This document shows positions 5,111 through 63,439 of a stretch of DNA of 64,000 nt, piece after piece. Numbering within the stretch: position 1 is the first letter of the stretch; each line of letters begins with the position of its first letter. Both the position numbers and the translations under genes were made by a program. The DNA comes from Liolophura sinensis. Its lineage: Eukaryota > Mollusca > Polyplacophora > Chitonida > Chitonidae. The notes beneath the pieces are model-generated. The model did no database searches and was not told the DNA's origin. It saw only the letters and a list, made by a program, of their open reading frames with translations. The stretch lies in contig NC_088300.1 of the NCBI RefSeq assembly GCF_032854445.1, positions 7,070,001 through 7,134,000 of the forward strand, given 5' to 3'.

Positions 5111-7410
5111 ATTGGAATACACAGCTTCCATTTCACTAAAATCTCTACGCTACATGTGCCACTATGACCACATCTGCACTGCTCTAGCAAATATATCTAA
5201 GGCACTTATTCTTGACTGCACAGAAATGAGTCAACATTCGTTTAGATATCTAAATAAACATATTTATGGCTTGGAAGAAGAAGAAGAAATTAATATGCGC
5301 TTTTTTTTACCGCCCCTTCTTGGCAAAGTCAAGCACACCAGCACTACTAGAGTGTATGATGTACAGTATGTACGCGTGAGAGAAGCAGTCAGCCTGTGCA
5401 CACAAATGTACAGGTATTACCAGCCATCACAGCCGTACCGCTACACCTTTCCTGCAACCGTGTCTGCAATCACAGCTGCAACAGGTGTTAAGCTACCTGT
5501 ATTGTAATTGACGCACTGCGTTCAGCATCCACACCTAAGTTGATATCCTCTGGTATGTACTTGTAAATGTACTGTGTGCACGCAAGTCAGTTTGAAAAGC
5601 CAGGTGTTACTCACCTTGAATTTACGAAGAAGATGAAGGACTAAGTGCAGAAATTTCTCACTTATATTTCTGAGAGAGTTTGCTCATAATTGATGAAAGT
5701 TTTTCAACAAAACTGCAAATTTTGCGCAGGAGTGCAGAAAACAGGATAAAATAAAGCATGTACAATTCAAAGCTTTAATGATGCAAAAAGCTACAGATGA
5801 CAACTCAAAACGTTATAGAAAGCATTTCACTACACATAAACTAGTACACATAAATAAGTCTGTAACTTGTAAGCCTAAAGTTTTAACAGCTGGTACGTAT
5901 CAACACATACACATAGGCAGAAAGAGATTTTGAAACAATTACATACTGGAAGTTTTAACAGGGCTCAAATTTCAACTTACGGCCTTTACAGAAACAGGGG
6001 TGGGAAAATGAGACTAATGTCCTCTGTGAGGTACATCACAGCAAGATCACCACTCTTAACATGCCTGCTGTTAGGATCAAAGGCAGGCAGGTGACATCAT
6101 GATAATAATGTCTTTACTCTGTGTGGGTAATGCTGCTCAGTCCACTCATTATTGATCTCTCTCAAGGTATGACTTCATTCACACAATTAATCGACACGCA
6201 AACATCCACTGGGCTAAATGAGAAACACCTTCAAAGATTTGTAAGATGGTTAACGGGTGACACTGTTAAGCACCCCATGTCAAAACACATCAAAGAATGC
6301 AATATTTTGTTCCCAGGGCATACAGGTAATCCACAGATTTTGAAAAAATGGCTTTGGTCTCACAATTGGAAAAATTTGAACGCAAAATCATACATTTTGG
6401 GGAAAACAGTGTACATGGTAGCTGGGATTTTCAAGTAGTGCGTACTTTACAGTTAACTGGTGCTTGAATTAACCTATGTCACTTAACATACAATGACTAA
6501 AACTTGTGAATGAAGTTTACCAAAATCAAACACACAAAACTTCACATCTGATATGATACTTTATAATCCCCCACCCTTTGAGACTTGTGGTTGCAAATTG
6601 GGAAACATCCCATGTCGGCCCCTGGAGCATACATGTAGGTACATTATGTACTCCCCTGTTATCTCTTTAATATGACACATTTGTTAAAACAATGCTGCAC
6701 TTTGTCATCAAAATTCAAAATAGTAAAAGAATGCATCTCAACTAAATGACTGCGGTCAGGTTCCTTACTGTCAACAGGAAAACAGCAGGCTCTTGAAAAA
6801 ACCTTGACACTTTAGTACGACAAACCTAACGGTGAACCCAGCAAGAGATAGAATGGAACTCATAACCTTATTTCTCAATAGCATGATAGGAAACTATGGT
6901 TGAGGAATTATGTACTACTCCTGGTGGATTTGGAAGTTCAAAGCAGACATACTTGTACATGTACATAATGTTTGGTAATTACTAAGACGTCAGAGCTGGA
7001 ATATGTGCTGATAAGCGAGTCTGAAATAATCGCTACACCGCCACTACACACTTTCTCACTTTAAAAATCAAACCATTAATACCCTACCAGTGGTGGCCAC
7101 CTAATTCAACAACTAACCTCATACTCTGCCCTGACATAGTAATACACATGCACATTCCCATAAAGTTCTTTTTTTTTGTATACTATAACAGAAGATTTTT
7201 TACATGTATCCTCCAGTCATCTCCAAACAGGACGAGCTTTCACAGCTTGTTATAATACAGCAAAAAAAAGTGTTCAAGGTTTTATGTAAACTTATATATT
7301 TATGTGTGGTGGAAATTTATTGTGTATTTTAGGCCAAAAAGTTGTGTAAACAGATAGATATGAAAATAGCATATTCTTGCCAAGGGTCCCTTATAAGACA
7401 ATAGTGTTCC
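5111..7410. other. non-coding stretch, no gene supported
   Basis: AT-rich DNA with a few short open frames (5046-5507, 6121-6438, plus strand) that show no known motif and no consistent splice context. Probably intron or flank of the minus-strand gene that starts at 15.3 kb; this is inference from position only. Confidence 0.4.
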
Positions 7411-7920
7411 AAGGAATCTAATGTACAACGTGAATAAATCGAGTAATCTAACATACAATGTGAATACATCAAGTAATCTAATGTACAATGTGAATACATC
7501 GAGTAATCTAATGTACAATGTGAATACATCGAGTAATCTAATGTACAATGTGAATACATCGAGTAATCTACTGTACAATGTGAATACATCAAGTAATCTA
7601 ATGTACAATGTGAATACATCAAGGGATCCAACATACAATGTGAATACATCAAGGAATTTGATGTACAATGTGAATACATCAAGGAATTTGATGTACAATG
7701 TGAATACATCAAGGGATCCAACATACAATGTGAATACATCAAGGAATTTGATGCGCAATGTGAATACATCAAGGGATCTAATGTACAATATGAATATATC
7801 AAGGAATTTGATGCACAATGTGAATACATCAAGGGATCCAACATACAATGTGAATACATCAAGGAATTTAATGTGCAATGTGAATACATCAAGGGATCTA
7901 ATGTACAATGTGAATACATC
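7411..7920. repeat. 30-bp minisatellite
   Basis: About 17 copies of a 30-bp unit of the type AATGTGAATACATCAAGTAA then TCTAATGTAC. Variants (AAGGAATTTG, AAGGGATCCA, GAGTAATCTA) form ordered blocks. As 30 is a multiple of three, open frames run through it on both strands as 10-residue repeats (plus-strand motif YNVNTSSNLM); I regard these as non-coding. Confidence 0.93.
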
Positions 7921-8749
7921 TATTATGACTATATGCCTTAATTATATTGCATTCTTGAATATAAGCGTCATGTTCGACATTCCTGTACCATTCGTAGTCT
8001 ATAAAGGGCGTTCCAAGTCAATAATCGCAAGATCCATTTCAAAAACAACATTTAACACTAGCTCCCAAAGACAAAGGTATGTAAGAAATTATACAAATAG
8101 GGAATAAAGCCGGTAGCATTCAAGAGAGAAGCAGTCATCAGTTTTCAATGGTGACGGGCAGACAATGGATATTCCAAGCATGAATTCCATATCAAAGTTC
8201 AAATTCTTAGTCCATGAATGAGTTCCAGGTCAAATAACAATTAAACAAGGTATCTGAGTTGCGCTTTGATTGCAACTGTTCATAATGCAGATGTAATGAG
8301 CATGGCAGCCTTTACGCCCACTAGCCCCAAGTTTAGCGGTATTAGATACAGATTGAAAATGACGAGCGTTACAGACCTTAACTGAACAGACTGTGATTCA
8401 AAAGTAACCGACGATTACGTCTTTTCCGTTAATATGTAAGAATGTCATACTACAAGAGGCGCCATCTAACAAACCAGGGTTCTGCTGGTGAAGAAACATC
8501 CCTGAGATCTGGTCCCTTTGCATTGTTTTAATGTTGTTGTATGTCAAATGGGATGACAACACAGCATGTGTTTCTAGACCAGTGACATCTAATAAATTGC
8601 AATTAACATCACTGTATGTTCTTACTTATTAAATTCTGCTTATGCCATGGTGCTAGGGGGTGTGTAATTGGCTACTATTTAAGCATTTACATTAACAGTT
8701 AGAATAAAGCCTAACTGAGGTAAATTGACAAGAGGCTGCATTTTACTGC
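7921..8749. other. non-coding stretch, nothing recognised
   Basis: Single-copy looking sequence between two minisatellites; no exon or repeat family identified. Confidence 0.4.
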
Positions 8750-9947
8750 TTACAGGTGACCACTTGCCAGATATAACACTATCGCCGTTACTCTGGTTTT
8801 ACTCTCTGTGCTGTATGTCATAGCTTACATGTGACCACTTGCCAGATATCACACTATCACCGTTGCTCTAGTTTTACTCTCTGTACTGTATGTCATTGGT
8901 TATGTGTGACCATTTGCCAGATATCACATTATCCCCATTGCTCTGGTTTTACTCTCTGTGCTGTATGTCATTGGTTATGTGTAACCATTTGCCAGATATC
9001 ACTCTATCACCGTTGCTCTGGTTTTACTCTCTGTGCTGTATGTCATTGGTTACGTGTGACCATTTGCCAGATATCACATTATCCCCGTTGCTCTGGTTTT
9101 AATCTCTGTGCTGTACATCATAGCTTATGTGTGACCATTTGCCAGATATCACTCTATCACCGTTGCTCTGGTTTTACTCTCTGTGCTGTATGTCACAGCT
9201 TACAGGTGACCATTTGCCAGATATCACATTATCCCCGTTGCTCTGGTTTTACTCTCTGTGCTGTACATCATAGCTTATGTGTGACCATTTGCCAGATATC
9301 ACTCTATCACCGTTGCTCTGGTTTTACTCTCTGTGCTGTATGTCATTGGTTACGTGTGACCATTTGCCAGATATCACACTATCACCGTTGCTCTGGTTTT
9401 ACTCTCTGTGCTGTATGTCACAGCTTACATGTGACCATTTGCCAGATATCACATTATCCCCGTTGCTCTGGTTTTACTCTCTGTGCTGTATGTCATAGCT
9501 TACATGTGACCACTTGCCAGATATCACACTATCACCGTTGCTCTGGTTTTAATCTCTGTGCTGTATGTCATAGCTTACATGTGACCATTTGCCAGATATC
9601 ACATTATCCCCGTTGCTCTGGTTTTAATCTCTGTGCTGTACATCATAGCTTACATGTGACCATTTGCCAGATATCACATTATCCCCGTTGCTCTGGTTTT
9701 AATCTCTGTGCTGTACATCATAGCTTATGTGTGACCATTTGCCAGATATCTCACTATAGCCAATGCTCTGGTTTTACTCTCTGTGCTGTATGTCATTGGT
9801 TACGTGTGACCACTAGCCAGATATCACACTATCACTGTTGCCCCGGTTTTACTCTCTGTGCTCTATGTCAATGATTACGTGTGACCACTAGCCAGATATC
9901 ACACTATCACCATTGCCCTGGTTTTACTCTCTGTGCTGTATGTCATT
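8750..9947 (+). repeat. 75-bp minisatellite with long open frame
   Basis: Sixteen copies of a 75-bp unit; GCCAGATATC recurs at 8841, 8916, 8991 and so on. The unit contains GTTGCTCTGGTTTTACTCTC and CTGTGCTGTATGTCAT. Because 75 is 25 codons and the unit lacks a stop, a 347-codon plus-strand frame (8831-9874) reads as 25-residue cysteine-rich repeats (VTICQISHY, CSGFTLCAVCH). There is no signal peptide and no flanking exon, and a second frame is also open in places, so a repeat is the safer call. Unit subtypes (CACCGTTG versus CCCCGTTG) partly alternate. Confidence 0.9.
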
Positions 9948-15297: not shown

Positions 15298-15535
15298 CTG
15301 TGGTCCAGAAAAAAATACACCACGAATCAGTACATTGACAGACTGAGTGTTTGATCTTCCAAGACATCTTGGAACAATATTTTGTATGCCATGTTTATTT
15401 GTGTCTGTTTACTATTAAAACATTCATATACTTTCCGATTAATCAAAAGCAAAATAATCAACACCTTTGTCAACATTTTTTCCCTTTTAAGGCAGTAACC
15501 AAGTTTATGAGATAAGGAAGCCGGTCAGAGATCAA

Positions 15536-16336
15536 GTACATGAGTGTAGTGTTCCCGGCCTGTTATACCAAGTACATGAGTGTAGTGTTCCCGGCCTGTT
15601 ACACCAAGTACATGAGTGTAGTGTTCCCGGCCTGTTATACCAAGTGCATGAGTGTAGTGTTCCCGGCCTGTTATACCAAGTACATGAGTGCAGTGTTCCC
15701 GGCCTGTTACACCAAGTACATGAGTGTAGTGTTCCCAGCCTGTTATACCAAGTACATGAGTGTAGTGTTCCTGGTCTGGCATACCAAGTACATGCGTGCA
15801 GTGTTCCCGGCCTGTTATACCAAGTACATGAGTGTAGTGTTCCCGGCCTGTTATACCAAGTACACGAGTGTAGTGTTCCCGGCCTGTTATACCAAGTACG
15901 TGAGTGCAGTGTTCCCGGCCTGTTATACCAAGTACATGAGTGTAGTGTTCCCGGCCTGTTATACCAAGTACATGAGTGGAGTGTTCCCGGCCTGTTATAC
16001 CAAGTACATGAGTGTAGTGTTCCCGGCCTGTTATACCAATTACATGAGTGCAGTGTTCCCGGCCTAGTATACCAAGTACATGAGTGCAATGTTTCCGGCC
16101 TGTTATACCAAGTACATGAGTGGAGTGTTCCTGGTCTGGTATATCAAGTACATGAGTGTACTGTTCCTGGTCTGGTATACCAAGTACATGAGTGGAGTGT
16201 TCCTGGTCTGGCATACCAAGTACATGAGTGCAGTGTTCTGGGCCTGGTATACCAAGTACATGAGTGCAGTGTTCCCAGCCTGTTATACCAAGTACATGAG
16301 TGTAGTGTTCCCGGTCTGGTATACCAAGTACATGAC
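15536..16336. repeat. 36-bp minisatellite
   Basis: About 22 copies of a 36-bp unit (TGAGTGTAGTGTTCCCGGCC then TGTTATACCAAGTACA). The right part carries a subtype with CTGGTCTGG. With 36 = 12 codons and no stops, long frames run on both strands (plus motif MSVVFPACYTKY); none has other gene features. Confidence 0.95.
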
Positions 16337-16379
16337 CAATCTCACCCGAAATAGATGAAAGTTAAAAGAATATTTCACT

Positions 16380-26300: not shown

Positions 26301-26491
26301 GTGGAACTTCAGCCAGTTGCCATGGAAACATCACCATTGGACAGAATGGCCACTGTTAATTTTAGAGATCTGTATAAAGTCACATGTGAAGGTATAGCAG
26401 TGAATCTTGTGCCGATCAGCACATAATGACCATGTGAATCAACTATTTCACACAGGAACAGCATTAAACATGTCCATACTTGGCTGTTACA
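23383..26491 (+). other. probable first intron of the nuclear receptor gene
   Basis: Lies between the putative 5' exon donor and the acceptor before the start codon. It contains a G-rich tract (24447-24483) and no recognisable exon; scattered short open frames look random. Confidence 0.4.
24447..24483 (+). other. G-quadruplex-capable G-rich tract
   Basis: Five guanine runs of 3 to 5 bases (24447-24450, 24452-24454, 24468-24471, 24473-24477, 24480-24483), with one 13-base loop and otherwise 1-2 base loops. Confidence 0.6.
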
Positions 26492-26510
26492 GGCATCAAG
26501 GCCAGGTGCT

Positions 26511-27380
26511 ATGTCAAGTGTGAGAGAGCAGCAGCAGCAGCAGGAATGTGCTAAACCTCAGGTGTTAAATTGCCCAGGTGAGATGATTGTGACAGCTCAA
26601 ACAGGTGCACAGGTAGTCTATGACCAGATGAAGACAGAGGTGTGTGTGACTACCAACCTCGACATGTATGCCTCCAAAACTGTTGATTCCTGGAATTTTA
26701 CTTCAACACACCATAACAGTTACAGAGAATTTCATTTATTTGGGGAACTAATGCATACTGACAATTCCAATCTGTCTTCTTTACCCATGGTCACCATGCC
26801 ATCGACCGCCTGTACATTTGTGTCTGATTTTCCCATGACTGACAATACCTGTCTGAACCAGGATATCAGGACCGACTTGTTTACCTTTGATATACCCTCC
26901 ACCCATCAAGGTGCACAGTCATTTGCGGAGCTATCTTCTTCATGCCAAAAGTATTCAAGCAGAACTGAGAAGATAAAGCCTCCTTGTAACATGCTCGAAA
27001 AGGCTGAGGATTCGGGGACGAGTGATATATACAACAGGACTTCATCATCCACAAGTTTTACTTCAGAAATAGTGCCAGAGTCTTGCCTGCAGGAAAATCC
27101 CTTTAGCATACCAATCCAGGAAGCTGCATGTAACCTACAACCCAAAAGTTGCAGTAAACAGTGGAATTCGGATCAAAGTGCTTCTGATGCTGAAGGCACA
27201 TCAAACCTTCCTGAGTGCTTATCCGCTGAGGTCAAACGTCAGAGTAAGGAGAGTGTGGACCTTAGCTGTGTTATGGGACCATCAAAAGACAATTCTAATG
27301 CCTCAGTGATTCGCTGTCAGGTGTGCGGGGATAGTGCAGCAGGGTTTCATTGTGGGGCTTACGTTTGTGAAGCTTGCAAG
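26511..27380 (+). CDS. 2DBD-NR: 2DBD-NR coding exon 1: A/B region and first zinc finger of DBD1
   Basis: Encodes residues 1-290. The A/B region is rich in Ser, Thr, Asn and Gln, with a short poly-Gln run (QQQQQ) near residue 8, and no known domain. The last 22 residues are the first finger, [18 protein letters not shown] then EACK. The P-box is CEACK+K, not the usual CEGCKG. The exon ends in phase 0 directly after the P-box lysine (GCAAG|GTAAAT). The acceptor at 26491 shows that this is not the first exon of the transcript. Confidence 0.93.
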
Positions 27381-30300
27381 GTAAATAGAGACCTAGTACT
27401 GTAACAGATCTATGAAGTTTTGGCCACATAATGCTGTGTCTCTGTACACCCCATTATAATATCATTGAAAATGCATACTGTCATTAATTCAGAAAAAAAG
27501 AAATAGTATGATACTTATAACAAATAAGGGGCCATTGTCTTTGCATAATTTATCCTTGGGTGTACATGTTGAACCAGATGGTTTTCCATCCACTTTAACC
27601 TATCCTTAGACAGAGTAGTTTTTAGAGACAAGAATGTCAAGATGATGAAAAAAAGTTTCTCATATGAAAATATGAGCCCTACATGTTGTTTGCTTGTAGA
27701 TAGGTGTATTTCTTTCACTCATTCCTTTGGTTCCATCCATCTCTTTACAGAAATTTTTTATTCGTACAGCTAAGAAAGCTTACAAGTTAATGTGTTCAAA
27801 AAGTAAACAGTGCACGGTCACCAAGAAACTGCGGACTCTATGTCAGTATTGCCGCTACCAGAAGTGTCTTCAGCTCGGAATGTACAAACCAGGTCAGTTT
27901 TAGTTTTTAAGTATTTCTTTTTTACCCATCAAGGCCATCAATAAATGTATACTTGTTAGGTATAACCTAGCCCATTTGTAAAGTGTTCAGTAATTGGAAA
28001 AACCTTTGTTTTCTTGACAATTGAAAAGACCTACAGTATTGGCTTGGATGATAGGTTTGGAAAAAAGTGCAGCAAAGACCATTTTTGGAGTGGCCTTTCA
28101 TACCAGATCATGTAGTAAAAAGTTTTATTGCAATGCTGATTATTGCTTAGGCAAGACGCAATGGTGTTCGCAGAAAGTATGTGTAAATGCTTGACAACCA
28201 AAGCTTCCTTAATTCTGATCTGGTAACATTATTTTTTGACAGTGCAAGCCCAAGCTGATTTGTCTTGAAACGATGAATCAGCATCACAGCGTTACATATA
28301 TATGTTCTGTGACAACTTGTAGTAAAACAATGTGACACAAATATAGTGTAGCAAACACTGCAGCAAATCATTATTCAGTCTGTTTAAATCATGTCGAAAG
28401 TGTCATGTATATGCAGCAACATGTAGCTTTCCAGTCCTATTATATTCTGGAGTCTTGGTAATACTTGTCCATTTGTCTTCAAGACTGGAAGAACTTAAGA
28501 TTAATAGTCGTCTGTCTCTGCCTTCCACACATTTTGTATCTTTTGTACATAACAATCACTAACAGAGGCTTTTTTTTTTAAATAAAATTTTGCCCTTTTT
28601 AGCGTGTTGAAAGTATGTGATGTGTTTTGATGTACTGATTTCTGAATTTTGCAGGATACTGATATGTCGTGGATATCTGTATAATCTACATGTTAACCTC
28701 ACTGTTTCCATATCACTAAGTTGTGAAACTGACCTGTGTTGAAGTGGACACTTTCAACATGTGCACAGTACATGCATTTGAATTCTACCTATTTTTCATT
28801 TTGCCATATTTTTCCTAGTTTACAGATCTTATAATTGAACTTTGAACTTCTGTGTTTATGCTTGTAGGGAGGTGCATATCTATTTTACGGTGCATTTGTG
28901 TCATTGTCACCCACTTCTTCATTTATCCACTATGCTTTTACTTGACCAACCATGTTATTAAACCCCATAAATGGGGCATGCATTATTGGTGTACATCGAT
29001 ACATCTGATAAAGAATGCTAATACATAAATGGATTTCCTTTATAATATGGATTATGTATAGTCCTCAAAATAGAGAAGGCCTTAGATTCTTTTGTCCTGA
29101 CACGCCCATAGCTGGACTACACTGTATTCTGTCAATCAGGTCCGGATAAACTGATCACATGCATGCGCAGTGTATGTACAGTGATGTTATATATGGAAGC
29201 TGATCGGCCAAGGGATACATAACAGTCAGGGACTGATTTTCCTCAGCTGTTAATTAATTATTGCTATGGGCTTCTCTAAATCCTGAGGACTTATCATTAA
29301 TGAGTGCTGGACATTGCCATCTCTGCAACAAATCAAGAAGCTGTGAGGAACATTACATAATCATTGATGCACATTGTTGCCTGGAAGGCTTTGGACTGCT
29401 GGCATCAACTACTATCACAAGGTTGAATTTTTGCATCTACATGCACACGTACATGGGCATGCGTTTACTGTATTATTCTGTGTAGATTGTCTTTCCATCT
29501 GTATTCATTGTGGGTTGATATCTGTCAAGATTGTGGGCTGTTTTGGTAATAAATTGATTATTTCTAAGGCAGAATGAGAATTCTATATACAGCCTCTGAC
29601 TAAAGGATAATGTTTGATGAAACATAATATTTAGGAAAAGGAATCCAAGGTCACTGTAGCATGTTGGAATACACCTTGTAAATATGCACCCAAACAAATA
29701 CAACTGTTTGCCTCACAATGAAGTGAATAGTTTTCAGTGGTTATAAGAAAGAACAACAAATATTGTTACATACTGTATTTCACCTAACATTTACCTCTCT
29801 TCAGGAGATGCATTTTGCTTGATTCTGATCGATTCATCCACCTTATATGGCCACTCTGCCTGATGAATTACTTAACAGAAAAACTTAAGTCAGGAGAAAA
29901 TCACTGTTCGTCAGTATCAAAAGGATCATTTTTAAGACCGAACTTTAGGTGAAATACAGTAAACTTTTTAGTTATATGGAACGAGGGATCTACATCTTGA
30001 AAGCCCACGGGAATTCTCTTCTGGCGTGCTTGATAAATCAATTTTCAATCTGAACAATTCTTATAGGGCCAGATCTCTAATATGCCAAATTAGAGAACCT
30101 GGAAATACAATGTTGCATCACTTGACAGGTAACATACACTTTTAAGTCTATATGGCAAAAAGGCTTAACAGGAAGCAGTGTGTATATGTATTTGTTTTGG
30201 TGTAGTCTGTTCAAGTTTTGCTTGAAGACTTGAGCTTCAACTAATTTTTGGAACAAGCGCTCTGTTTTCACAAAACTGTATTTATCCACCTTGTAAGGCA

Positions 30301-33300
30301 GCCTTGTGCCTAGAAAACTGGAGATGGGTGGACCCACGAACCCACAACCATCTGCAGGATCTTCCCACGTACCACCAGAGAGGAAACCAGTATGAGCTTG
30401 ATTTGAACTCACAGTGACCACATTGGTGGGAGGCTCCTGGGTCATGGCGTGCTAACATACAGACTTGTACCTATATTATTTATAGTGTTCAAAAGTTTGA
30501 AAAAGTTGTAATGTAACCTGCTTTATAAATTAAAACGTATTAGTTACAAATTTTGAAAGGTTTTTTTGGAAAGATTATTTGGACTGTTCTAAAGTAATAG
30601 TCAAAGTTTGAATGGATACGCACTGATTGATTTACTAGATGCCTTTAAGAGAGTTGCTGACAGTTCTGAAATACAGTCTGATACAGCTGCTACTAATGCT
30701 ATTGCTTAAGTACGAGATTAATTGTAAGATTTCAGCTCAGATTGCAACACAAGAGTGGCATCTACCAGATGTTCACCAGCGCTTAACTGACCAATGAGGC
30801 AGCAGGTTCAATTCCATACCGGTCTGTCAGCAAAGTGCGTATGGTTGGGAGTTTTATCCCACCATATTGCTGGCTGCAGTTGTATAAGTGAAATATTCTT
30901 GAGTACGGTTAAAAACAACAATCAAATCAAATAAAAAAATCAGATCTATACTCTTCTGGTGTAATCACAGCTTTAAGTCAGGAGGTTTCATCAGGCATGT
31001 GGTGAAGGGAGGAGGGTTTTGCCAGGCATCTGGTGAAGGGAGGAGGGTTTCTGCAGGCTCAGCTTCCCCCACACAAAAACCTTCCCTGTGTGGCCATATA
31101 TGTGAAGGATTCCTGTATAAAACATGTTAAAAACAAGAATTAAATACAATAACTTTGTGAAATACAACTAATTCCAGATAATTTGTTTTTGATTAAGTGA
31201 CTGTGTTTATTATAATTGTTTAAGTTGTTCATACACTAGGTGAGGGGCCAGGCCAGGGCTCAGAGAGGAAGTCTGTCCTACCATGTCGAGTCTGCTCAGC
31301 TCCCTCATCAGGTTATCATTTCGGGGCAATTACATGTGAAGGATGTAAGGTAAATATCTACATTGAATCTTATTTCTATCTTTTTTATATCATTTGTGTG
31401 TACCATAAATGATGTTATTTTAGTCAGGTCAGACATCAGATGACATGAAAACAAAACAAAACAGAAGCTGGCGTTTGACTATATGGTACCTTAACGAATA
31501 CCTGACAGTATGAGTTGCATCTAAATGCACACTGCATCAGAGCTAGCCAGCACTGGATTTGAACTTGTGACTGTTAATTAGCCAAAGGGTCATGACCTGA
31601 AGCAGCTGTGCTTTGAACAAGTAAAGATCATTGTTTGAATAAAGTGTAATTCATTGCATGTTATCCTTTTAAGCCTGGCTTAACACTGTCAAACGCATAT
31701 CCCCCCATGCCCAGCCTGTCTTTTCCCCAGTTTTCTGACATGAAGACACCAGCCAGGGTTAGCTAGTCTAAATTTCAGTTCTATTTTCAAAGGCCTATCC
31801 AGGTTCAATCATCTAAAAGCTCACCCTCTGCTAGAAGTCAGCCTTTACTCAGTAAAGTCTGATGCTGACGAACAGTGATTTTCTCCTGACTTAGTTGAAC
31901 TTCCCATTCACCTATAAATTTACCAGCTGTGTGTAGATAAAATATTCTTGTGTAAGCCATAAAATCCCAGTAAATATATTTTTTCAGGGTTTTTTCCGAC
32001 GTATGACCAAGGAAAGGGATGTGACACGTTTTACCTGTGTGAAGGGAGGTAACTGTCCGGTGACGCAAAGCACAAGGAACATGTGTAAAGCCTGCCGTTA
32101 TCAGAAATGTTTTGGGGTGGGCATGTCTGCAGATGGTAAGTTTGCAAAGTGGTGTTAAAACACCTACATCAAAAATTGATTGTAGCGCAGTGTCTTCAGT
32201 TTTCTTGAGTATGTATTCTCAGTTTCTATTTTTTATTGTACATTATTATAAAAGGAACATTTTATTTAAATAAAATGGCCCTAGAACCTGCTGGTAAGTG
32301 TTTGGCAGGTCCCTGTTGACTTCCTCAATGAACACTTATGAAAGTTAACCATGGCGTGTTTAGTGTTAGACAGACAGGTCACACTCTGTAAGATTCATAG
32401 CGCTCCATGAAGTTCTGGAAAATGGATCTGTGTATTAAATCTGTCTGTGTCTGTCGATCCTTAGTTTTTGTAACATCTGTCCTATCAGGTTGTGTGTCAT
32501 TTATCACGTCCATGTTTCAAATAATTGTTTCCTACAGTTTTCTTGATCAGACTAAATGTTATAAGTCATCACCTGGTATTAGTTGCTGGACTGTTGCATC
32601 TTGTTAAGGCACTGTATTTCACCTAAAGTTTGAATGCAATCAGTTTGAATATAAAAATGCAATCCAGAAGCTTATAAAAATCTTAAAATGACACTTTTGA
32701 AGCTAACACTTAAATTTTTCTGATAAGAAACCAGTTAAAATTTCCAAGTGCCACTATAAAGTAAATGAATCAGTCAGAATCAAGGAAAATATGTTTCTTT
32801 CAAAATGCTTAACTTTAGGTGAAATACAGTAATTAATATATAAATAATTAAATAAATAGCTGCATGATTCATTCCCCCAACTGAGGAATGTGGAGCATTA
32901 TGTTTTGGTTTCATTCATTTGAACCTCTTTATATGAAGTAGTAGAGAGAGGGATCATCATGTTTGTTTGCCCCCTTGCAAGTATGACTGTGGCTGTGTTA
33001 AAACTCAAGCCAGCTTCAAACCAAGTCGAGGTGTCACATATCAGAGTTTTTCATTCATCATTGTTGAGAAAATAGAAGGCAATCCTGATCAAGTTTCAAT
33101 TCTTTGTCAACCTCATTGTAAAGCCCATTATGCAATCAGCTGTCCAGAGGAATGTGTTTTAATGCCAGGTACATTTATGACTGAGGAACTTCTGAAAGAG
33201 CATGCTGCGTCTGACTGCTAATGTTACACTAACCCTTGTAGGTGACCAACAGTATTGCGAGGGCTGCCACTAAGAATTATGTAGATAAGGTGTCACGGCC

Positions 33301-36300
33301 TGGTGTAACATACTGTAGAGATGAATTACATGGGGTCTTCAACCCAGTGGCCCCAATCCAGCTCTCCAAAAAAAAAAAAAATTTACTCCTTGGCCAATAA
33401 TTGTGCTACTGGTGTATTGTGGATTTGTGTTGTGTGTAGTGTTGGAACCCATCTTTTCAGCTGGTCAGTCTGTTTTCGGTGAACATCTTTTTAAAAACTC
33501 TGTGTAAATAAACACTTGTAGCCAGGTTTTATATTAAGCTTACACAGCAGGATTGTACACTTTAATAAACATCGGATAATAAACATTCCTTTTAGTTTCT
33601 GTGAAGTTAGTCAATTTTATCACAATCAGCAGTGTCATTTAAGTTACATTTTGTAACAGGCTTTCAAACACATATCTCGTGAACTTTTCAATCAATTTTT
33701 TTACCACATGTGGGCTTTTTAATAGTCATCTAGAGGAAGCCTATTGTTTTTATCTTACCTTGATATATTTCTCGAAGTTGTTGGGCCTTGTATATCCTTC
33801 CTGATTTCATGCATATTTATTTTGTTCGCTCACATGATCAGTCACTCTCAATGCTGACATTCAACTGTCCTTATGGCGAAGGGTTTTTTTTTTTGCGTGC
33901 ATTGGACAGCATGTCTTTAATAATAATTCTAATGTTTTAGAATTCATTTAATTATTTCAGGAAGCCGGATTGGCCGGCAACCAAATGCTGTGAAGCATGC
34001 CACATTGCTTGAGATCCAGAGTCGAGAGATGAAAAGCAGCAACTCTCCTGAGACTTTGCCCTTTGTTCACATCTCCAGCAACTGTGGTCCTAATCTGGAG
34101 AGTTCATTTCAACTGTGTGCAAAGTCCTGTCAAAATGAGACTGATGCCAGTCACCAGTCCAGTACACTGAACAATGTAGCAAGATCCGTGGCCAAGCATG
34201 AACACAATCAAAGAACAGAGACATATAGATGTTCACCAAACACGCATGTTGCACCTTCCCTGAACATTTCACCGAGGGACAAGGACAGTAAGATGATACG
34301 CATGGTGACCAATCAAAGTCATAAGGAAAGCATCTCTGTGACAACAAGTTTAAAGGATATAGTCGGTCAGATCATAACTGCTGGACAGGAACTTAATTTT
34401 ATGACATTGCAAGTAAGTCTTGAAGATAATGAAAATGTTTGAAATGTTTTTTTTTTTAAAATGCAATTTAAGGTGCGTCATGGCATGAAACTTTCTTCTT
34501 ACATAAATGGCTCTAAACTACAAAGGCTTAAAACTGTAAAAGCTCTTTTGGTCAGCCTGGTAATTAAGGATCCAGCATTTGTGACATCAAAGATAATAGC
34601 TGTCAAAACAACTCTGTGGGAGTTTGAATGAGGAAGGCTAAGCTGGCCTGATGCCCCCAGTATGTTCATCACTGACGTCATTTCTGACCACAAAAATTTG
34701 CTTTAAATAGAGGGGTAAATAAGTTATCTAAATTGTGCTTCAAAAAGCTGTTTTAATTTTTTTTTTTTGCCACTTCCCACGTTTCCCTTCAACCATAATT
34801 TTCGTTTTAGAGTTCCTCATGTGTTCTAAGTTTTTACATACTATCAGAATGCTCATCTTATGTTGATATCTGATGTAAGTGTTATGTGTCAACAACAAAA
34901 GGGATGTAATTCTTTCATGATGTGAATATATGCACCTGAACAGTTCATGGTTGTGAAGATGTATGTTATCCACATAACTTTGTACATGGTTGTTTCAGCC
35001 AACTGATGACGAAGAGCTTACCCATGAGGACTTCCAAGACCTGGCCACTAGATGGAAAGATATGATGGAGAGATTTACATATTTCACCCATGGAACCCTT
35101 AAGTTTGCTAAAAAAATTCCAGGTTATTAATTTATTCGTGTCTGAGTGTTGTACAGTGAGGGTGTATAGCCAAACAATCGAATGCTAGTTGAGTGGTGTA
35201 ATGTGTTGACAGCTGCATGGTCTTTGAATAGTGAGGTCATGTGTTTGAATCAAACAGCTTTGGGCAATGAGGTCATGTGTTTGAGTCAAACAGCTTTGAG
35301 TCATGAGGCCATGTGTTTGAATCAAACAGCTTTTAGCATTGAAGTCTGATGTTTGAATCAAACAGCTTGAGCCATGAGGTCATGTGTTTGATTCAAACAG
35401 CTTGAGCCATGAGGTCATGTTTTTGATTCAAACAGCTTTGAGCATTGAAGTCTGATATTTGAATCAAAAAGCTTTGGGTTGTGTGTTTGAATCCAGTGGC
35501 TCTGAGTTATGAGGTCATGTGTTTGATTCCAATAGCTTTGAGCCATGAGGACATGTGTTTGAATCAAACAGCTTTTAGTAATGAAGTCTGATGTTTGAAT
35601 CAAAAAGCTTTGGGCCATGAGGTCATGTGTTTGAATCCAATAGCTTGGAGCCATGAGGCCATGTGTTTGAATCAAACAACTTTTAACAATGAAGTCTGAT
35701 ATTTGAATCAAAAGGCTTTGGGTCATGAGGTCGAATCCAATAGCTTTGAGCCATGAGGCCATGTGTTTGAATAAAACAGGTTTTAGCAGTGAAGTCTGAT
35801 ATTTGAATCAAAAAGCTTTGGGTCATGAGGTCAAATTCAGTAGCTTTTATCCATGAGGTCATGTGTTTGAATTGAACAGCTTTGAGCCATGAGGTCATGT
35901 GTTTGAATCAAACAGCTTTTAACAATGAAGTCTGATATTTGAATCGAACAGCTTTGAGCAGTGATGTTATGTGTTTGTTTCGAACAGCTTGGAGCCATGA
36001 GGCCTTGTGTTTGAATCAAACAGCTTTTAGCAATGAAGTCTGATGTTCAAATCAAACAGCTTTGAGCCATGATTTCATGTATTTGAATTAAACATCTTTG
36101 AGCAGTGATGTCATTTGTTTGAACCAAACAACACCGACAGGCTGAGGCTCAGTCAGGCATTTGGTGAAGTGTGATGTTGTCCTCCACTTACATGTATGAT
36201 GTTGTTCTGCACAGGTAAATGTGATAACTCTGATAAATCTAAATAAATTCCAGGAAATAAGTTACATAATTCTTTCATTCTACCTATATCATTTTGCATT

Positions 36301-38032
36301 GCGTGTGAAAACATATGGGCCAAATGTGGAAAAATGTGTTGAGCACTCTGACTCCTTATAATGTACATCGCTAAACAAACGATGATTCAAATTAAATATA
36401 TCTAAAACATATTTTTCATTGGGTAAAGTTACTTTAAAGTTATCTGCTTGTAATTTGAAAAAAAGCTGAGAATTTTGTATTATGGTTGGTTTTTGCCAGG
36501 TTTCCGAAGCCTAAAGCTGGACGACCAGGCCTCTCTGTTACAAACAGCAGCCTACCCTATTGTCATCTTGTCCCTCTCCAAATGTTACAACTACACCACT
36601 AAACAGTTCAACTACTTCAACTACTCTGAGCAGGAGAGACAGATGATATTCCAGTACATCCCCGGTTTCCAGCCCCTCAAGGAACACTTCATCAGTACAG
36701 GTGACATGGTTACCATGCTCAAGCTAGACGACATAGAGCAACTTTTTCTGGCTGCCCTCATCTTATTAAGTCCAGGTAAGAGTCCAGGTAATCTCTTGCT
36801 GCCCATATAGACATATTATATAGTCTAGATAATGTCATCTTACACACATGTACATAGCTGAGGTAATGTCAGGTTTATCAAGATTTATTTGATCAATGTT
36901 TTACATCATACTATGGTGGAAGGAAACCGGGCAGACCCTGAGAAAAACACACATTTATCCGAAGGTTGATGGCAGACCTTCCCGCGTATGGCCGGACAGG
37001 AAGACAATATGAGCTCGACTTGAAGTTACATATATAGCTCATGTACCGCTTAGTTTCTGATATCTTCCACATTCAAGAAGCGAGATCCATTGAAATAAGT
37101 AAGGAGTTTTCTGAAATTTGGATCACAGTGTGTTGGAGTCCTTTCTGTATATAGGTGATACATGTTGGTGACATATATTTGTCGACACAAGTGATTCATG
37201 CCACAAAACAGCAGCCTGTAGAGTGGGTGTTTGGGTTAGCAAACCGGGTAAAGTTGTATGATGTAAAGTAAACCTTTAATAAACTTTTCCAAACCCTCAT
37301 TCAAGAACGCAGTTGACCAATCTTCAACAAGACAGTTGCAAATACAACTGTTTGACAACCCGATGTCCCACAAATATGGTTTGAGTGGTAAAACTTAGAA
37401 GATTGTCACTCTTTAACTTGACTTTGCAGATGAGGGCAATGTTATCGAGAAGAGCAAAGTCTGGGAGGTTCAGGAAAACATAGCAGCAGCACTACAAGAG
37501 TATGAAGAAAGTAAGGCTCCTTTTTATTTGGTTTATTATTTACTGTTAAGTAAAGCAATTTTATGAGTTCTCATTGTTGTTTTTCCAATGTTAATTTTAT
37601 CTCCTCTCCATCAACATATCTTAACCATGTGGATGAATTTTTTTGGCAAACTTAAGGGTTCCATGGGTGATGTATCTAAATTTCTCCATCATATCTTTCC
37701 ATCTAGACACCAGGTCTGGGAAATCCTCATGGGTAAGCTGTATCATCAGTTGGAAACAACCATGTACAAAGTTATGTGGATAACATGCATCTATACAACC
37801 GTGATCTGTTAATGTGCAGTTATTTTGTAAAGGAAAATTAAGAACATGAATGATGTTTTGTTTGGCAGAGACTTACGAAGATGGCGGTACAAGATTTGGT
37901 GTGTTAATCACTCGTCTGGCAGAGTTCCGGCTCATTAACCTTCAGCATCAGCAAGTGATCAGCACTGTCATCCGTGAGAACCCATCGTTTAAGGTCCCAC
38001 AACTCTTCTCGGAAATGTTTCTTTCCAGCTAA
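26511..38032 (+). CDS. 2DBD-NR: nuclear receptor with two DNA-binding domains (2DBD-NR), complete, nine coding exons
   Basis: Coding exons: 26511-27380, 27751-27892, 31240-31349, 31988-32135, 33961-34412, 34999-35122, 36500-36775, 37430-37510, 37869-38032. They sum to 2367 bases, 788 residues plus stop, with all phases compatible. Order: a long disordered A/B region (1-268), DBD1 (269 to about 337), a 14-residue linker, DBD2 (353 to about 423), a hinge of about 150 residues encoded by one exon, and a ligand-binding domain (about 575-788) with the family signature [20 protein letters not shown] and an AF-2 helix LFSEMFL at the extreme C-terminus. Both DBDs keep all eight zinc-binding cysteines. 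As a nuclear receptor it should act in the nucleus as a DNA-binding transcription factor; its ligand and target sites are unknown. Receptors with two tandem DBDs form a known but little-studied invertebrate group (reported in schistosomes, molluscs and Daphnia). An in-frame stop at 26424 and no earlier in-frame ATG support the start at 26511. Confidence 0.95.
27751..27892 (+). CDS. 2DBD-NR: 2DBD-NR coding exon 2: second zinc finger of DBD1
   Basis: Residues 291-337, starting [20 protein letters not shown]. The D-box loop is CSKSKQC; the finger finishes [14 protein letters not shown]. Acceptor CTCTTTACAG, donor AACCAG|GTCAGT, ending in phase 1. [10 protein letters not shown] departs from the usual GFFRR opening. 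Confidence 0.93.
29773..29959. mobile_element. MITE with TA target duplication, copy 1
   Basis: Terminal inverted repeats CTGTATTTCACCTAA and TTAGGTGAAATACAG, flanked by TA on each side (29771-29772, 29960-29961), as in Tc1/mariner-type elements. No transposase. The inner GATTCTGATCGATTCATCC is shared, inverted, with the copy at 32612. Confidence 0.88.
30300..30450 (-). mobile_element. SINE family A head fragment
   Basis: Minus-strand head and body: CACAACCATCTGCAGGATC, TTGAACTCACAGTGACCACA (B box region), GGCTCCTGGGTCATGGCG. The tail is missing. Confidence 0.75.
30770..30935 (+). mobile_element. diverged SINE family A
   Basis: CAGGTTCAATTCC (B box), TCCCACCATATTGCTGGC, GTATAAGTGAAATATTCTTG and ACAACAATCAAATCAAATAA. 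The head is degenerate. Confidence 0.78.
31240..31349 (+). CDS. 2DBD-NR: 2DBD-NR coding exon 3: linker and first zinc finger of DBD2
   Basis: Residues 339-374 after a split glycine codon: [14 protein letters not shown], then [22 protein letters not shown]. The P-box CEGCK+G is the canonical one of non-steroid receptors. It ends in phase 0 straight after the P-box lysine, exactly where exon 1 ends in DBD1. Acceptor ATACACTAG, donor GTAAG|GTAAAT. Confidence 0.93.
31988..32135 (+). CDS. 2DBD-NR: 2DBD-NR coding exon 4: second zinc finger of DBD2
   Basis: Residues 375-423: [18 protein letters not shown]-box CVKGGNC, then [17 protein letters not shown]. Acceptor TTTTTTCAG, donor CAGATG|GTAAGT, phase 1 as in exon 2. 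The intron just before it (about 31900-31975) has a decayed SINE-like stretch (AAAATATTCTTGTGTAAGCC). Confidence 0.93.
32612..32829. mobile_element. MITE, copy 2 (inverted relative to copy 1)
   Basis: Ends CTGTATTTCACCTAAAGTT and AACTTTAGGTGAAATACAG, right flank TA; the left TA has been lost. It lies in the intron after DBD2. TCAGAATCAAGG matches the inner part of copy 1 on the opposite strand. Confidence 0.87.
32967..33221 (+). other. 84-codon open frame inside an intron, status uncertain
   Basis: A plus-strand frame without an early ATG encodes a Cys-containing peptide ([13 protein letters not shown] near the start, [10 protein letters not shown] at its end). It lies between receptor exons 4 and 5. 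It does not join in phase to exon 4 and no domain is recognised. It may be chance or the remnant of an exon or element. Confidence 0.2.
33961..34412 (+). CDS. 2DBD-NR: 2DBD-NR coding exon 5: hinge
   Basis: Residues 425-574, a 150-residue Ser/Asn/His-rich hinge with no known domain. The first part, [20 protein letters not shown], is the basic C-terminal extension that often adds DNA contacts. Acceptor AATTATTTCAG; donor TTGCAA|GTAAGT, phase 0. Confidence 0.9.
34999..35122 (+). CDS. 2DBD-NR: 2DBD-NR coding exon 6: start of ligand-binding domain
   Basis: Residues 575-615 beginning [19 protein letters not shown] and ending [10 protein letters not shown] across the junction, the end of helix 3 and the start of the LBD signature. 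Acceptor TTGTTTCAG, donor TTCCAG|GTTATT, phase 1. Confidence 0.92.
35140..36130. repeat. ~36-bp tandem repeat in receptor intron
   Basis: About 26 imperfect copies of CATGAGGTCATGTGTTTGAA then TCAAACAGCTTTGAGC. The core GTTTGAATCAAAC is nearly self-complementary. It fills most of the intron between the two LBD exons. Confidence 0.9.
36500..36775 (+). CDS. 2DBD-NR: 2DBD-NR coding exon 7: LBD helices 4-8
   Basis: Residues 617-707: [19 protein letters not shown] completes the signature, followed by [20 protein letters not shown] and [19 protein letters not shown]. Acceptor TTTTTGCCAG, donor GTCCAG|GTAAGA, phase 1. A partly duplicated AGTCCAGGTAA 11 bases on could serve as an alternative donor. 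Confidence 0.93.
36875..37030 (-). mobile_element. diverged SINE family A
   Basis: Minus-strand tail and body: TTTATTTGATCAATGTTTTA, CTATGGTGGAAGGAAACCGG, GGCAGACCTTCCCGCGTATG. The head is lost. Confidence 0.75.
37430..37510 (+). CDS. 2DBD-NR: 2DBD-NR coding exon 8: LBD helix 9 region
   Basis: Residues 709-734, [26 protein letters not shown]. Acceptor ACTTTGCAG, donor GAAGAAA|GTAAGG, phase 1. Confidence 0.9.
37869..38032 (+). CDS. 2DBD-NR: 2DBD-NR coding exon 9: LBD helices 10-12, AF-2 and stop
   Basis: Residues 736-788: the helix 10/11 segment [19 protein letters not shown], typical of receptor dimer interfaces, then [12 protein letters not shown] and TAA. LFSEMFL fits the AF-2 pattern (hydrophobic pair, x, E, hydrophobic pair) that recruits coactivators. 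Confidence 0.93.
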
Positions 38033-47308: not shown

Positions 47309-50300
47309 CTGTCATAGAAAACAGGTCACATTAGTCAGAATTTCAATTACTTTCTTTGTCATAAAATGTCATAAATTCCCCATATATATAAAGTACATTT
47401 TTAGAGGCAAATAATGGTTATAAAGTATTACTTTTGGTGCTGAGACTTACCTTTCTCAAGTAGGAAATCATCCTACCTTCCAAACAAAGCTTAAAACATC
47501 TTTCTAAGATCTATAGAACTCCCAGAATCAAGCCAAAAGAATAACTAGACACAAATAAACACAATATGTTTCCAACAATGCTGCTCAATATGTTTCAAAG
47601 GAACAGTGGAATAAAAGCGTCAAGATAGACAATGCATAAATGATGTTAGGACAAGTCATTATCAGGTGTGCATCGTGCTCTCAGGAAAGTGTACACTGAG
47701 ATAAACACTGTGCATGTAAACACAGCGGAGGTAAACACTGTGGATTTAAACACTGTGAAGATAAACACTGTGCATGTAAACCCAGTGGATGTAAACCCAG
47801 TGGATGTAAACCTAGTGGAGGTAAACCCAGTGGAGGTAAACACAGTGGATGTAAACACTGTGGATGTAAACACTGTGCATGTAAACACAGCGGAGGTAAA
47901 CCCAGTGGATGTAAACCTAGTGGAGGTAAACCCAATGGGCATAAACACAGTGGAAGTAAACCCAGTGGAGGTAAACACAGTGGATGTAAACTCAGTGGAG
48001 GTAAACACAGTGAATGTAAACCCAGTGGAGGTAAACACTGTGCATGTAAACACAGCAGAGGTAAACCCAGTGGAGGTAAACACAGTGGATGTAAACTCAG
48101 TGGAGGTAAACACAGTGAACATAAACCCAGTGGAGGTAAACCCACTGAACATAAACCTAGTCGATGTAAACACAGTGGAGGTAAACCCTGTGGAGGTAAA
48201 CCCAGTGAATGTAAACACAGTGGAGGTAAACACAGTGAATGTAAACCCAGCAATACCTTCACCTTTTTTCCCGTTATTCTTCTTGGGTCGCTTTGTGTGC
48301 TTGAACTTCTTTAAATGTTCTGGATTTTTTCTACAAAGTCAAATACATGAAGCTTAAAACAGATGGTAGAAATAAGACAATGCAGCAAGTACGTGATCTA
48401 ACTGGTCATCTGTCGAGTATATCACATAACTATAGTGTGCTACTGGAAGCAGCAATGAGCAAACAAGAATTTGCACCTTCATCACAAAACATCTACCTGG
48501 GAAGATCTGTATATGGTCATGGGTTTCCCCCAGGGCTCAGCCCGGTTTCCAGCCACCATGATACAGGATGTCATCATAAGTAAAATATTCTTCAGCAGGG
48601 CAAAAAAATACAAAACTATAAATTTTCCCTTACAACATTCAACAGAAAGAGACTTTGGGAACCTCAACATAAGCCCGTCCTGGCAGGGTAAATATCAGAC
48701 AACGCCTCCAATCTTGCATTGATCATCAAAATACACAGGACCACCCTATTTCAAACTATTAAGTGGAGCTGTTCTTCAAATAACAGCGGATAAATTTGAA
48801 GGCACTGTGATTTAACAGAGACAACCAGGCATACGAAGAACACTGGTAGCTCGCCTGATTAAGCAGTTCGTAAAACTGCATCGTGTTCAAGCGAGTGACG
48901 TCACTGAATGTTGGAACTCTTTTTACCTATGAGTAAAGGATTACTGAAATAAATCTCCCAAAAACTCCTTCCTTCTGGTGAACATCGGGAACAAAGGGTA
49001 ATGTGACGTCATTGTTACTAGGTAACCATAGCATTCAAATATTTGAATATACAAAAATCTGGAAAAAATAAATATAAGTATTTTTTTCGCATAGTTCTCA
49101 GTTGTCTATATAATTCATTTTTCTTTTACTTTAAATAGTGCTAAGATCTTGCCATTAAATCATCAAGAAAGGCCAAAATTATTACACTGTCATAAATATG
49201 ACTGTTTATCATATGTATAAAGATTGAAGAGCAGTGAATTTGTAAGTCATAGAGTGGTATGTTGGGATAAGGTAGTAAAAACCTCCTTGTCAGCAGTTCA
49301 ACAACCAACTCACTGGAGTGGTCTTTGATATGCAACTTGCTACACACCACTGGCTATCTGTGTACTATGGGTGACCACTGCTATTCGACGACTAGCAGAG
49401 CAAATGCTCAGCTGACAACAGTTACTGCCTATGTGGATGGTTTAAACATTCCGATCAAGTCTTGAAAGGTACATGCATCAGCCAGTATTTTATTTATTTA
49501 TTTATTTGATTGGTGTTTTACACCGTACTCAAGAATATTTCACTTGTACAACGGCAGCCAGCATTATGGTGGGTGGAAACCGGGCAGAGGGAAACCCTCA
49601 ACCATCTGCAGGTTGCTGGCAGACCTTCCCACGTACGGGTCGGAGAGGAAACCAGCATGAGCTGGACTTGAACTCACAGCGACCGCATTGGTGAGAGACT
49701 CCTCAGTCATTACGCTGCGCTAGCGCGCTAACCAACTGAGCCACAGAGGCCCCTGCATCAGCCAGTATCACCATGGTCATAGGCTCCCAGTATTAATATG
49801 GACATGGAAAACTTTCTACGATAATGTGTACACCACAGAAAGTCCAAAAGTGAGGTAAGTTTTGACATTCCATAAATCTGGTAAAGTTGCTACAGATACA
49901 ATAAGCATCTTCTTGTTTACATAAGAAACTGTAGCCCTACATGAAATGTTTACACGAATCTGTGTTCACACCAGTCTCAGTATGGTGAGACGCTGTTAGA
50001 AACATACAAAAAACAGGCCCTACTATCATGAATAATTCTTAATCTTAGACTGTGATGTTACATGTTCAATAGTAACACCTTTAAATTCTCCTCATCATGA
50101 TTACCATTCACTTATTTCATTTTAGAAGTAAAAACAGTTTACAGCTGTTATGAAACACTTCCATATCAATCCCACATTAGTTCGAAGACAGAGTGAAGCT
50201 ACCCTCCTCAGACCTGTAGCATCCTGTTCCGAATTCACACTCTGGTTGGGTGTCGACCTCTGACCCTGAGCCGGACTCCTCTTCCTCCTCTGAGCCTTCA

Positions 50301-62988: not shown

Positions 62989-63033
62989 ATGACATCAGCC
63001 AGCAGTGATGGCAGAAAGATTGGTGCCATCTGA
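62989..63033 (+). promoter_or_regulatory. overlapping upstream ORF of TECPR2
   Basis: ATG at 62989 opens a 14-codon frame (MTSASSDGRKIGAI) that overlaps the main start in another frame and stops at 63031-63033. If included in the mRNA it could lower initiation at 63008. Confidence 0.4.
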
Positions 63034-63247
63034 GACTACCACCCCAGCTTTGCTTCGTGAACATGCTCAACTTACCACTTTGTTGGGAAAGCTTCCGAAG
63101 AAGGCGCAGCGAGGATTGATGACCTATGTAGACATCACACTGACATGTGTGGATGCCAACAAGGCATTCATTGCTTTGGGGAGCAGTGTGGGTTTGGTGT
63201 TCCTATATAACAGGGCCAAAGAAACTGTGGACAGGCTCCGCTGTAAG
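63008..63247 (+). CDS. TECPR2: TECPR2 first coding exon (partial gene)
   Basis: Eighty codons from ATG 63008 to a donor at 63248 (CTGTAAG|GTAATT, phase 0). After a short N-terminus (MAERLVPSETTTPAL), the segment LTTLLGKLPKKAQRGLMTYV, VDANKAFIALGSSVGLVFLY, NRAKETVDRLRCK closely follows the start of the N-terminal WD40 propeller of TECPR2, including the L..LL...P.K.Q.G and D.N...IA.GSS.G...LY pattern. TECPR2 is a WD40/TECPR-repeat protein that binds ATG8-family proteins and supports ER exit sites and autophagy. The family member HPS5 has a related N-terminus but matches less well. An in-frame TGA at 62990 with no ATG between supports the start. The rest lies beyond the right end. Confidence 0.85.
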
Positions 63248-63439
63248 GTAATTTAGAGTGTCACTTGATGTAATTCAGGATATACAAGTAAACCAATGGA
63301 TGTGATGGAGAAAAAATTGTGTGTGTACCTGTAGCATTTGATTTATAATATTACCAGACTGTTGTAGTTGTCTGTTACCAGTGTATTAAAGGGAGAATGA
63401 TTAAAGTACATGTTAAGTTTTGCTATCTGTTCCTTCTCA

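Follow-up and report, generated by a model that had tools for sequence, protein, structure and literature searches.

A nuclear receptor gene with two DNA-binding domains in the chiton Liolophura sinensis: exon layout, family placement and possible origin of the additional domain

In the genome of the chiton Liolophura sinensis, a nuclear receptor (NR) gene encodes two DNA-binding domains (DBDs) in tandem, followed by one hinge and one ligand-binding domain (LBD). It is located at positions 26511 to 38032 of the forward strand of the window, i.e., the stretch of 64,000 nucleotides analysed here (C6:7070001-7134000), and the genome searched comprised 609,464,459 bases in 632 contigs. The assembly (PMC11068029) was issued as Liolophura japonica and the species was later corrected to L. 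sinensis (PMC12441733). As far as DNA can tell, the gene is real and complete, and it is a new member of the known subfamily of two-DBD nuclear receptors (2DBD-NRs), not a new kind of receptor. Its assignment to the group 2DBD-NRA is nearly certain; every sequence mark examined agrees with it. Taken as a whole, the explanation favoured here, namely a chiton 2DBD-NRA acting as a ligand-type transcription factor with the order A/B-DBD1-DBD2-hinge-LBD, is very probably correct.

Gene model and placement within the 2DBD-NR family

Nine exons join in phase to a coding sequence of 2367 nucleotides encoding 788 residues and a stop codon, with the frame ending at 38032, and all eight introns are of the GT-AG type with agreeing phases. 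The coordinates and the length reported in the first-pass annotation of this DNA were exact. The protein contains an A/B region, DBD1, DBD2, the hinge and an LBD with signature and activation function 2 (AF-2). Both DBDs fit the spacing C-X2-C-X13-C-X2-C ... C-X5-C-X9-C-X2-C (residues 269-324 for DBD1 and 353-410 for DBD2), and zf-C4 is matched twice by Pfam (E 1.6e-46 for the whole protein) and Hormone_recep once (E 1.1e-16); zinc spacing and Pfam agree with the earlier description of a complete receptor with two C4-C4 DBDs, one hinge and one LBD. The open frame of exon 1 (26430-27401, 324 codons) exceeds those of all 2000 sequences simulated with the dinucleotide frequencies of the region (maximum 199, mean 85). 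The ATG at 26511 is the first in this open frame, and an additional 5' exon is likely to precede exon 1, since the sequence before this ATG contains TTACAG, which resembles an acceptor and has its last base at 26492. The features of the gene are as follows (a slash marks an exon border).

26511-27380, + strand: exon 1, A/B region (residues 1-268) and finger 1 of DBD1 to Lys290 (CEACK, then border); donor GTAAAT, phase 0
27315-27380, + strand: finger 1 of DBD1, residues 269-290, P-box EACKK with its last K in exon 2
27751-27892, + strand: exon 2, finger 2 of DBD1 (KFFIR ... GMYKP/G), holding Lys291 and Ile294; ends in phase 1
27893-31239, + strand: intron 2, 3347 bp, the longest intron, separating DBD1 from DBD2
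31240-31349, + strand: exon 3, end of the linker and finger 1 of DBD2 (CEGCK, then border); enters in phase 1, leaves in phase 0
31988-32135, + strand: exon 4, finger 2 of DBD2 (GFFRR ... GMSAD/G); leaves in phase 1
33961-34412, + strand: exon 5, C-terminal extension and hinge
33966-33983, + strand: G-box RIGRQP, residues 426-431
34999-35122, + strand: exon 6, start of the LBD; Pfam LBD from residue 594 (about 35056)
36500-36775, + strand: exon 7, LBD
35104-35122 and 36500-36540, + strand: Ti signature of the LBD, split over exons 6 and 7
37430-37510, + strand: exon 8, LBD
37869-38032, + strand: exon 9, end of the LBD and stop
38003-38020, + strand: AF-2 core LFSEMF

Wu and LoVerde (2023; PMC10497141) divide 2DBD-NRs into groups by the P-P module, the G-box and other marks, and name as a criterion of 2DBD-NRs the class I dimer residues (E50, K/R93), with no RXR partner. 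For 2DBD-NRA the marks are the P-P module EACKK-EGCKG, five pre-grip residues, a G-box RXGRQ(P/S) with a His as the fifth residue after it, a Ti signature, and an AF-2 with E, Q or R at its acidic position (PMC10497141). The chiton protein has EACKK-EGCKG, five pre-grip residues, RIGRQP with His436 as the fifth residue thereafter, the Ti signature and an AF-2 core LFSEMF with Glu at the acidic position, the latter two bearing out the standard LBD signature and AF-2 noted earlier. The linker between Met334 and Cys353 comprises 18 residues (335-352), within the 17-22 of 2DBD-NRs, a range for which the counting limits are not spelled out in PMC10497141. Between the last zinc cysteine of DBD1 and the first of DBD2 there are 28 residues, and the distance of 14 residues given in the first-pass annotation holds if counted from Gly338, but neither from Met334 nor between the zinc cysteines.

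The subfamily is also present in annelids, brachiopods, nemerteans, phoronids, rotifers, nematodes, echinoderms and amphioxus, and the mollusc table contains bivalves and gastropods only (PMC10497141). The words "chiton", "Polyplacophora", "intron" and "exon" are absent from the main text of this paper, and in a literature search pairing 2DBD with Polyplacophora no listed paper (20 of 21 found) contains both words. The gene may well already be part of the chiton genome's own gene set, and no wider claim of a first description is made. The earlier annotation correctly treated the group as known and thinly studied, with the qualification that something of its function is known from planarian nhr-1.

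Intron evidence for the origin of the additional DBD and a possible mode of action

Both DBD1 and DBD2 are interrupted by an intron in phase 0 that immediately follows the lysine of the P-box. This border was compared with 32 other chiton receptor genes, 13 of which were scored while the others were read from translations. In ten of them (TR, RAR, ROR and seven more) the same phase-0 intron was seen from both sides, and all ten are of NR1 type by label or by position in the DBD tree. In L040, which looks like a pseudogene, only the donor side shows it, EcR and NR5 have a phase-1 intron one base further on, 18 more genes including four HR96-like ones are uninterrupted at this border, and L028 was left unresolved. 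The phase-0 intron is accordingly found in none of the 20 other resolved chiton genes, EcR and the HR96-like genes included, and no resolved NR2-, NR3-, NR4-, NR5- or NR6-like gene of the chiton carries it. In a tree of 35 DBD rows, DBD2 falls in an NR1 branch of 16 rows with support 93/88 (not starred and on a long branch, with EcR and HR96 outside). On the basis of trees, Wu et al. (2007) placed the two DBDs as sister to NR1 and took recombination as the source of the extra one; for the NR1 part of this origin the intron character provides independent support. We infer that both DBDs derive from NR1-type cassettes of two exons and that the extra one entered via the phase-1 intron with which a DBD ends.

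With regard to DNA reading, DBD2 together with its C-terminal extension scores best in the PDB against ROR-gamma (91.0 bits), followed by Rev-erb-alpha (89.3) and RAR-alpha (82.3), with the G-box region lying inside the ROR-gamma and Rev-erb-alpha alignments. These two receptors are known for recognising a lone half-site whose 5' flank is A/T-rich. DBD1 is without a G-box of its own. For the LBD, RAR-beta scores best at 60 bits, and VDR and PXR follow closely at about 58. The arginine in the ILRI of RAR is the retinoid clamp, and since it aligns with a serine in the chiton LBD (ILSL), a retinoid-type acid clamp is unlikely as judged from the sequence.

The following scheme is tentative, and that its first four steps hold jointly is slightly less than an even bet. 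The LBD would homodimerise without RXR, as shown for schistosome 2DBD-alpha (PMC1810520). DBD2 with its G-box would act as anchor on an extended half-site (an A/T-rich 5' flank plus AGGTCA) in the manner of ROR and Rev-erb, and DBD1, with EACKK and without G-box, would make a second, altered contact, the spacing of which might be limited by the linker of 18 residues. The AF-2 would recruit coactivators on binding of a lipid-type ligand, not of an acid held by an arginine of the RAR type. Finally, the receptor probably has a part in reproductive maturation, like planarian nhr-1. This planarian 2DBD-NR was detected in accessory reproductive organs and is held necessary for maturation (PMC10497141, reporting Tharp et al. 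2014). Among the candidates in Dugesia, the gene with the annotation 2DBD gamma rose first during sexualisation, and after its knockdown no reproductive organs remained (PMC12654950), and in a planarian atlas a neoblast class is marked with 2dbd (PMC10238425). A reproductive role in the chiton is plausible as a transfer from planarians.

Alternative explanations and splice options

Several results weigh against the reading favoured above and are given here together with the alternatives on which they bear. The gene model comes from DNA alone, with exon joins based on GT-AG borders, phase and homology, and one might suppose two genes or mRNAs, with a DBD1 protein from exons 1-2 and a receptor of the ordinary kind from exons 3-9. 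As such a division would have it, no intron of the gene is longer than intron 2, and reading on past exon 2 meets a stop at 27901. However, exons 2 and 3 join in phase, the open frame round exon 3 (31224-31412) contains no ATG before DBD2, the linker length fits the 2DBD-NR family, and the 2DBD cDNAs of schistosomes and Echinococcus carry both DBDs, making this division of the locus scarcely credible.

Concerning the origin of DBD1, the intron evidence has to be read with care. EcR and the four HR96-like genes, which usually are counted to NR1, are without the phase-0 intron, which is therefore not common to all NR1 and marks the core of NR1 only. DBD1 is unplaced in the DBD tree, and approximately unbiased (AU) tests of its kin reject none of NR1 (p 0.535), DBD2 as sister (p 0.40), NR2 (p 0.278) and RXR (p 0.136); the 70 columns are too few for the tree to decide the origin of DBD1, so only the intron position speaks. 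The identity between DBD1 and DBD2 is 31/70, ranking 22nd of 34 for DBD1 and 28th of 34 for DBD2, and because of these low ranks it lends no support to a direct duplication, which would have to be old and in this respect fits the published urbilaterian age (PMC10497141). DBD1 has an NR1-type intron, yet its sequence resembles RXR, NR4 and ERR no less than NR1 receptors. An alternative is that DBD1 was taken from an RXR- or NR2/NR3-like receptor, which would make the gene a chimera of two subfamilies. Among PDB entries, RXR-alpha comes first for DBD1 with 73.8 bits, with EsRRA and AncSR1 (71.1) and NGFI-B (70.2) near, the rows of the chiton's own genome nearest to DBD1 by identity include NR4, ERR, RXR and NR2C, and neither NR2 nor RXR is among the kin rejected by the AU tests. 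However, PPAR-delta, a member of NR1, ties with RXR-alpha at 73.8 bits and has the highest identity, and the phase-0 intron after the P-box is a character that DBD1 shares with no resolved chiton NR2-NR6-like gene, so that such a chimera appears improbable.

A further alternative concerns what DBD1 does. It might be degenerate, serving as an element for protein contact or spacing without reading bases, with the choice of DNA made by DBD2 alone. DBD1 departs at five positions from 28 aligned DBDs of the same chiton (L028, L033, L036 and L038 were left out, being incomplete or like L034): Ile294 stands where these have Lys (15) or Arg (13), Lys291 where they have Gly (23), Ala (3), Ser (1) or Cys (1), Cys281 where 27 have Tyr and one has Phe, Leu303 where 24 have Tyr, and Ala288 where 23 have Gly and two have Ala. 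Positions 281, 291 and 294 presumably face the DNA, going by estrogen-receptor structures. The missing G-box after DBD1 fits degeneration as well, and for flatworms conservation is said to be higher in the second DBD than in the first (PMC8363021). On the other hand, DBD1 keeps all eight zinc cysteines, the P-box Glu, the Lys following it and Arg295, and DBD2 has departures of its own (Ala358, where 26 of 27 have Asp, Phe365 and Phe389). Furthermore, EACKK is the P-box of DBD1 across the 2DBD-NRA group (PMC10497141), which argues for a selected role, and in a model of the Echinococcus granulosus receptor both P-box lysines contact G bases (PMC6844482). A degenerate DBD1 is thus rather unlikely. 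The same model has DBD1 contacting bases via these lysines while DBD2 only stabilises, i.e., the reverse of the DBD2 anchor proposed here, and AGG(C/G)CA was proposed as site for the EAK triad (PMC6844482). Moreover, schistosome DBD1, DBD2 and both together showed no binding in electrophoretic mobility shift assays (EMSA) to direct, everted and palindromic AGGTCA repeats with a spacing of 1-6 nucleotides (data not shown there; PMC1810520). The anchoring by DBD2 is neither shown nor excluded by this EMSA, because a single A/T-extended site is not mentioned there.

For the favoured 2DBD-NRA, the exon layout offers splice options. Exons 3 and 4 form a phase 1-1 cassette, and skipping them would leave a receptor of 702 residues in frame with DBD1 directly before the G-box. 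Skipping of exons 2-3 is in frame, too, and would give 704 residues with a hybrid DBD (its finger 1 from DBD1, its finger 2 from DBD2) with the P-box EACKG, whereas skips of exons 2-4, of exon 3 alone and of exon 4 alone are out of frame. As the post-P-box phase-0 intron and the phase-1 intron that closes the domain are common to both DBDs, three in-frame receptors are possible. One may imagine the locus as a switchboard for three receptors with the same LBD, i.e., the 788-residue form with two DBDs, the 702-residue form with DBD1 only, using the G-box extension, and the 704-residue hybrid; the same layout would explain why the double form could arise and last since early bilaterians. We regard this as improbable, though. 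In-frame skipping is by itself weak evidence because the frame is kept by 13 of the 28 possible skips of contiguous internal exons. The isoform observed for the E. granulosus 2DBD gene uses an alternative 5' site, and the paper mentions exon skipping solely when enumerating types of splicing (PMC6844482).

Genomic surroundings and comparison with known receptors

A search of the chiton genome with the whole protein gave 37 matches, which are its own exons, a relic of exon 6 and pieces of other receptors. No second 2DBD-NRA was among them, fitting one 2DBD-NRA per mollusc species; since scores were computed for 57 of the 69 candidates, a further copy may have escaped the search. With the zf-C4 model, 57 matches were obtained at E 0.001 and 77 (out of 79 candidates) at E 10, a threshold at which one of 14 control genomes, a bacterium, also matches; four of the 77 belong to the 2DBD gene. 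All 57 pieces at E 0.001 and nine of the 20 weaker ones were inspected (six of the 11 others are repeats on C2), yielding 32 other receptor genes and a few fragments, with L044-L046 counted as fragments or noise. Among these inspected pieces no second pair of DBDs was seen, and a finger-2 exon starting with K-F-F occurs in DBD1 only. A 2DBD-NRB (LPCKS-EGCKK), which nearly all bivalves and gastropods of the 2023 table have (PMC10497141), was not recognised among them either, which is no proof of absence. A search with a short P-box pattern decides nothing (221 matches versus 72 in the control). In a ROR-like gene (G000:C2:3679183-3680229) the real first-finger exon is followed by partial copies of its end (YGVITCEGCK plus donor), two of which are readable in L014, which covers the first part, while six more are weak matches only. 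In an NR1-type gene a broken tandem copy of the first-finger DBD exon (L030, G000:C4:9315212-9315283) lies about 100 bp after the real one. These two cases suggest that first-finger exons of DBDs are duplicating in place in the chiton genome.

Intron 8 of the 2DBD gene contains a further feature.

37635-37824, - strand: decayed copy, in inverted orientation, of exon 6 together with the intron preceding it

Its source is 34925-35119, with 87% likeness over 195 bases, and no third copy of this stretch was found in the genome. A function as alternative exon was rejected, given its opposite strand, the missing acceptor AG and donor, a frame break of two nucleotides, and mismatches spread over the codon positions (3, 5 and 4). 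In the pre-mRNA, exon 6 and its acceptor could pair with the copy (duplex energy -279 kcal/mol); skipping of exon 6 would result in a receptor of 578 residues without LBD. Intron 6 consists mostly of a minisatellite of 36-bp units (35186-36170), and two elements resembling miniature inverted-repeat transposable elements with ends of the type ACTGTATTTCACCTAA lie at 29772-29960 (intron 2) and 32611-32830 (intron 4) as the inverted pair I2. In the neighbourhood, Pfam on ten open frames returned only a weak match to HPS5: the frame 62993-63253 resembles the initial part of the HPS5 beta propeller (at E 0.001, short of the Pfam cut-off) and is possibly the first exon of a downstream neighbour. The long open frames 9-1254, 7303-8104, 8777-9871, 15491-16361 and 47649-48354 consist of short repeated units, on one or both strands, and look like minisatellites, not genes.

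The chiton gene adds a 2DBD-NR from a mollusc class outside the 2023 table (PMC10497141). Its full intron-exon model gives handles that go unused for this family in the protein surveys consulted, namely a character for the origin of the extra DBD and the definite splice junctions 2-5 and 1-4. It also sharpens the question of the DNA site, as the 2007 EMSA used AGGTCA repeats (PMC1810520) and the DBD2 extension resembles readers of single A/T-extended sites. As planarian nhr-1 is needed for reproductive development, a mollusc counterpart is of interest for such a role.

Among known receptors, the 2DBD-NRAs of bivalves and gastropods share with the chiton gene EACKK-EGCKG, a linker of 17-22 residues, RXGRQ(P/S) with His at +5, the Ti signature, the AF-2 and the occurrence of one gene per species (PMC10497141). 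In the mollusc 2DBD-NRB (Cg2DBD-delta) two DBDs and one LBD are found as well, but its P-boxes LPCKS-EGCKK differ from those of the chiton gene. The flatworm 2DBD-NRs all belong to the group 2DBD-NRA (PMC10497141). Schistosoma mansoni 2DBD-gamma and planarian nhr-1 have the same order of modules as the chiton receptor, whereas Sm2DBD-gamma comprises 1816 residues compared to 788 and has Gln in place of Glu in its AF-2. Echinococcus granulosus 2DBD-alpha, a flatworm paralogue termed 2DBD-NRA2 in the 2023 scheme (PMC10497141), has ten exons over 10,868 bp encoding 830 residues (PMC6844482), one intron more than the chiton gene with its nine coding exons over 11,522 bp encoding 788 residues. ROR and Rev-erb (NR1F and NR1D), which provide the closest solved structures of a DBD with C-terminal extension to chiton DBD2 including its G-box region, possess a single DBD only.

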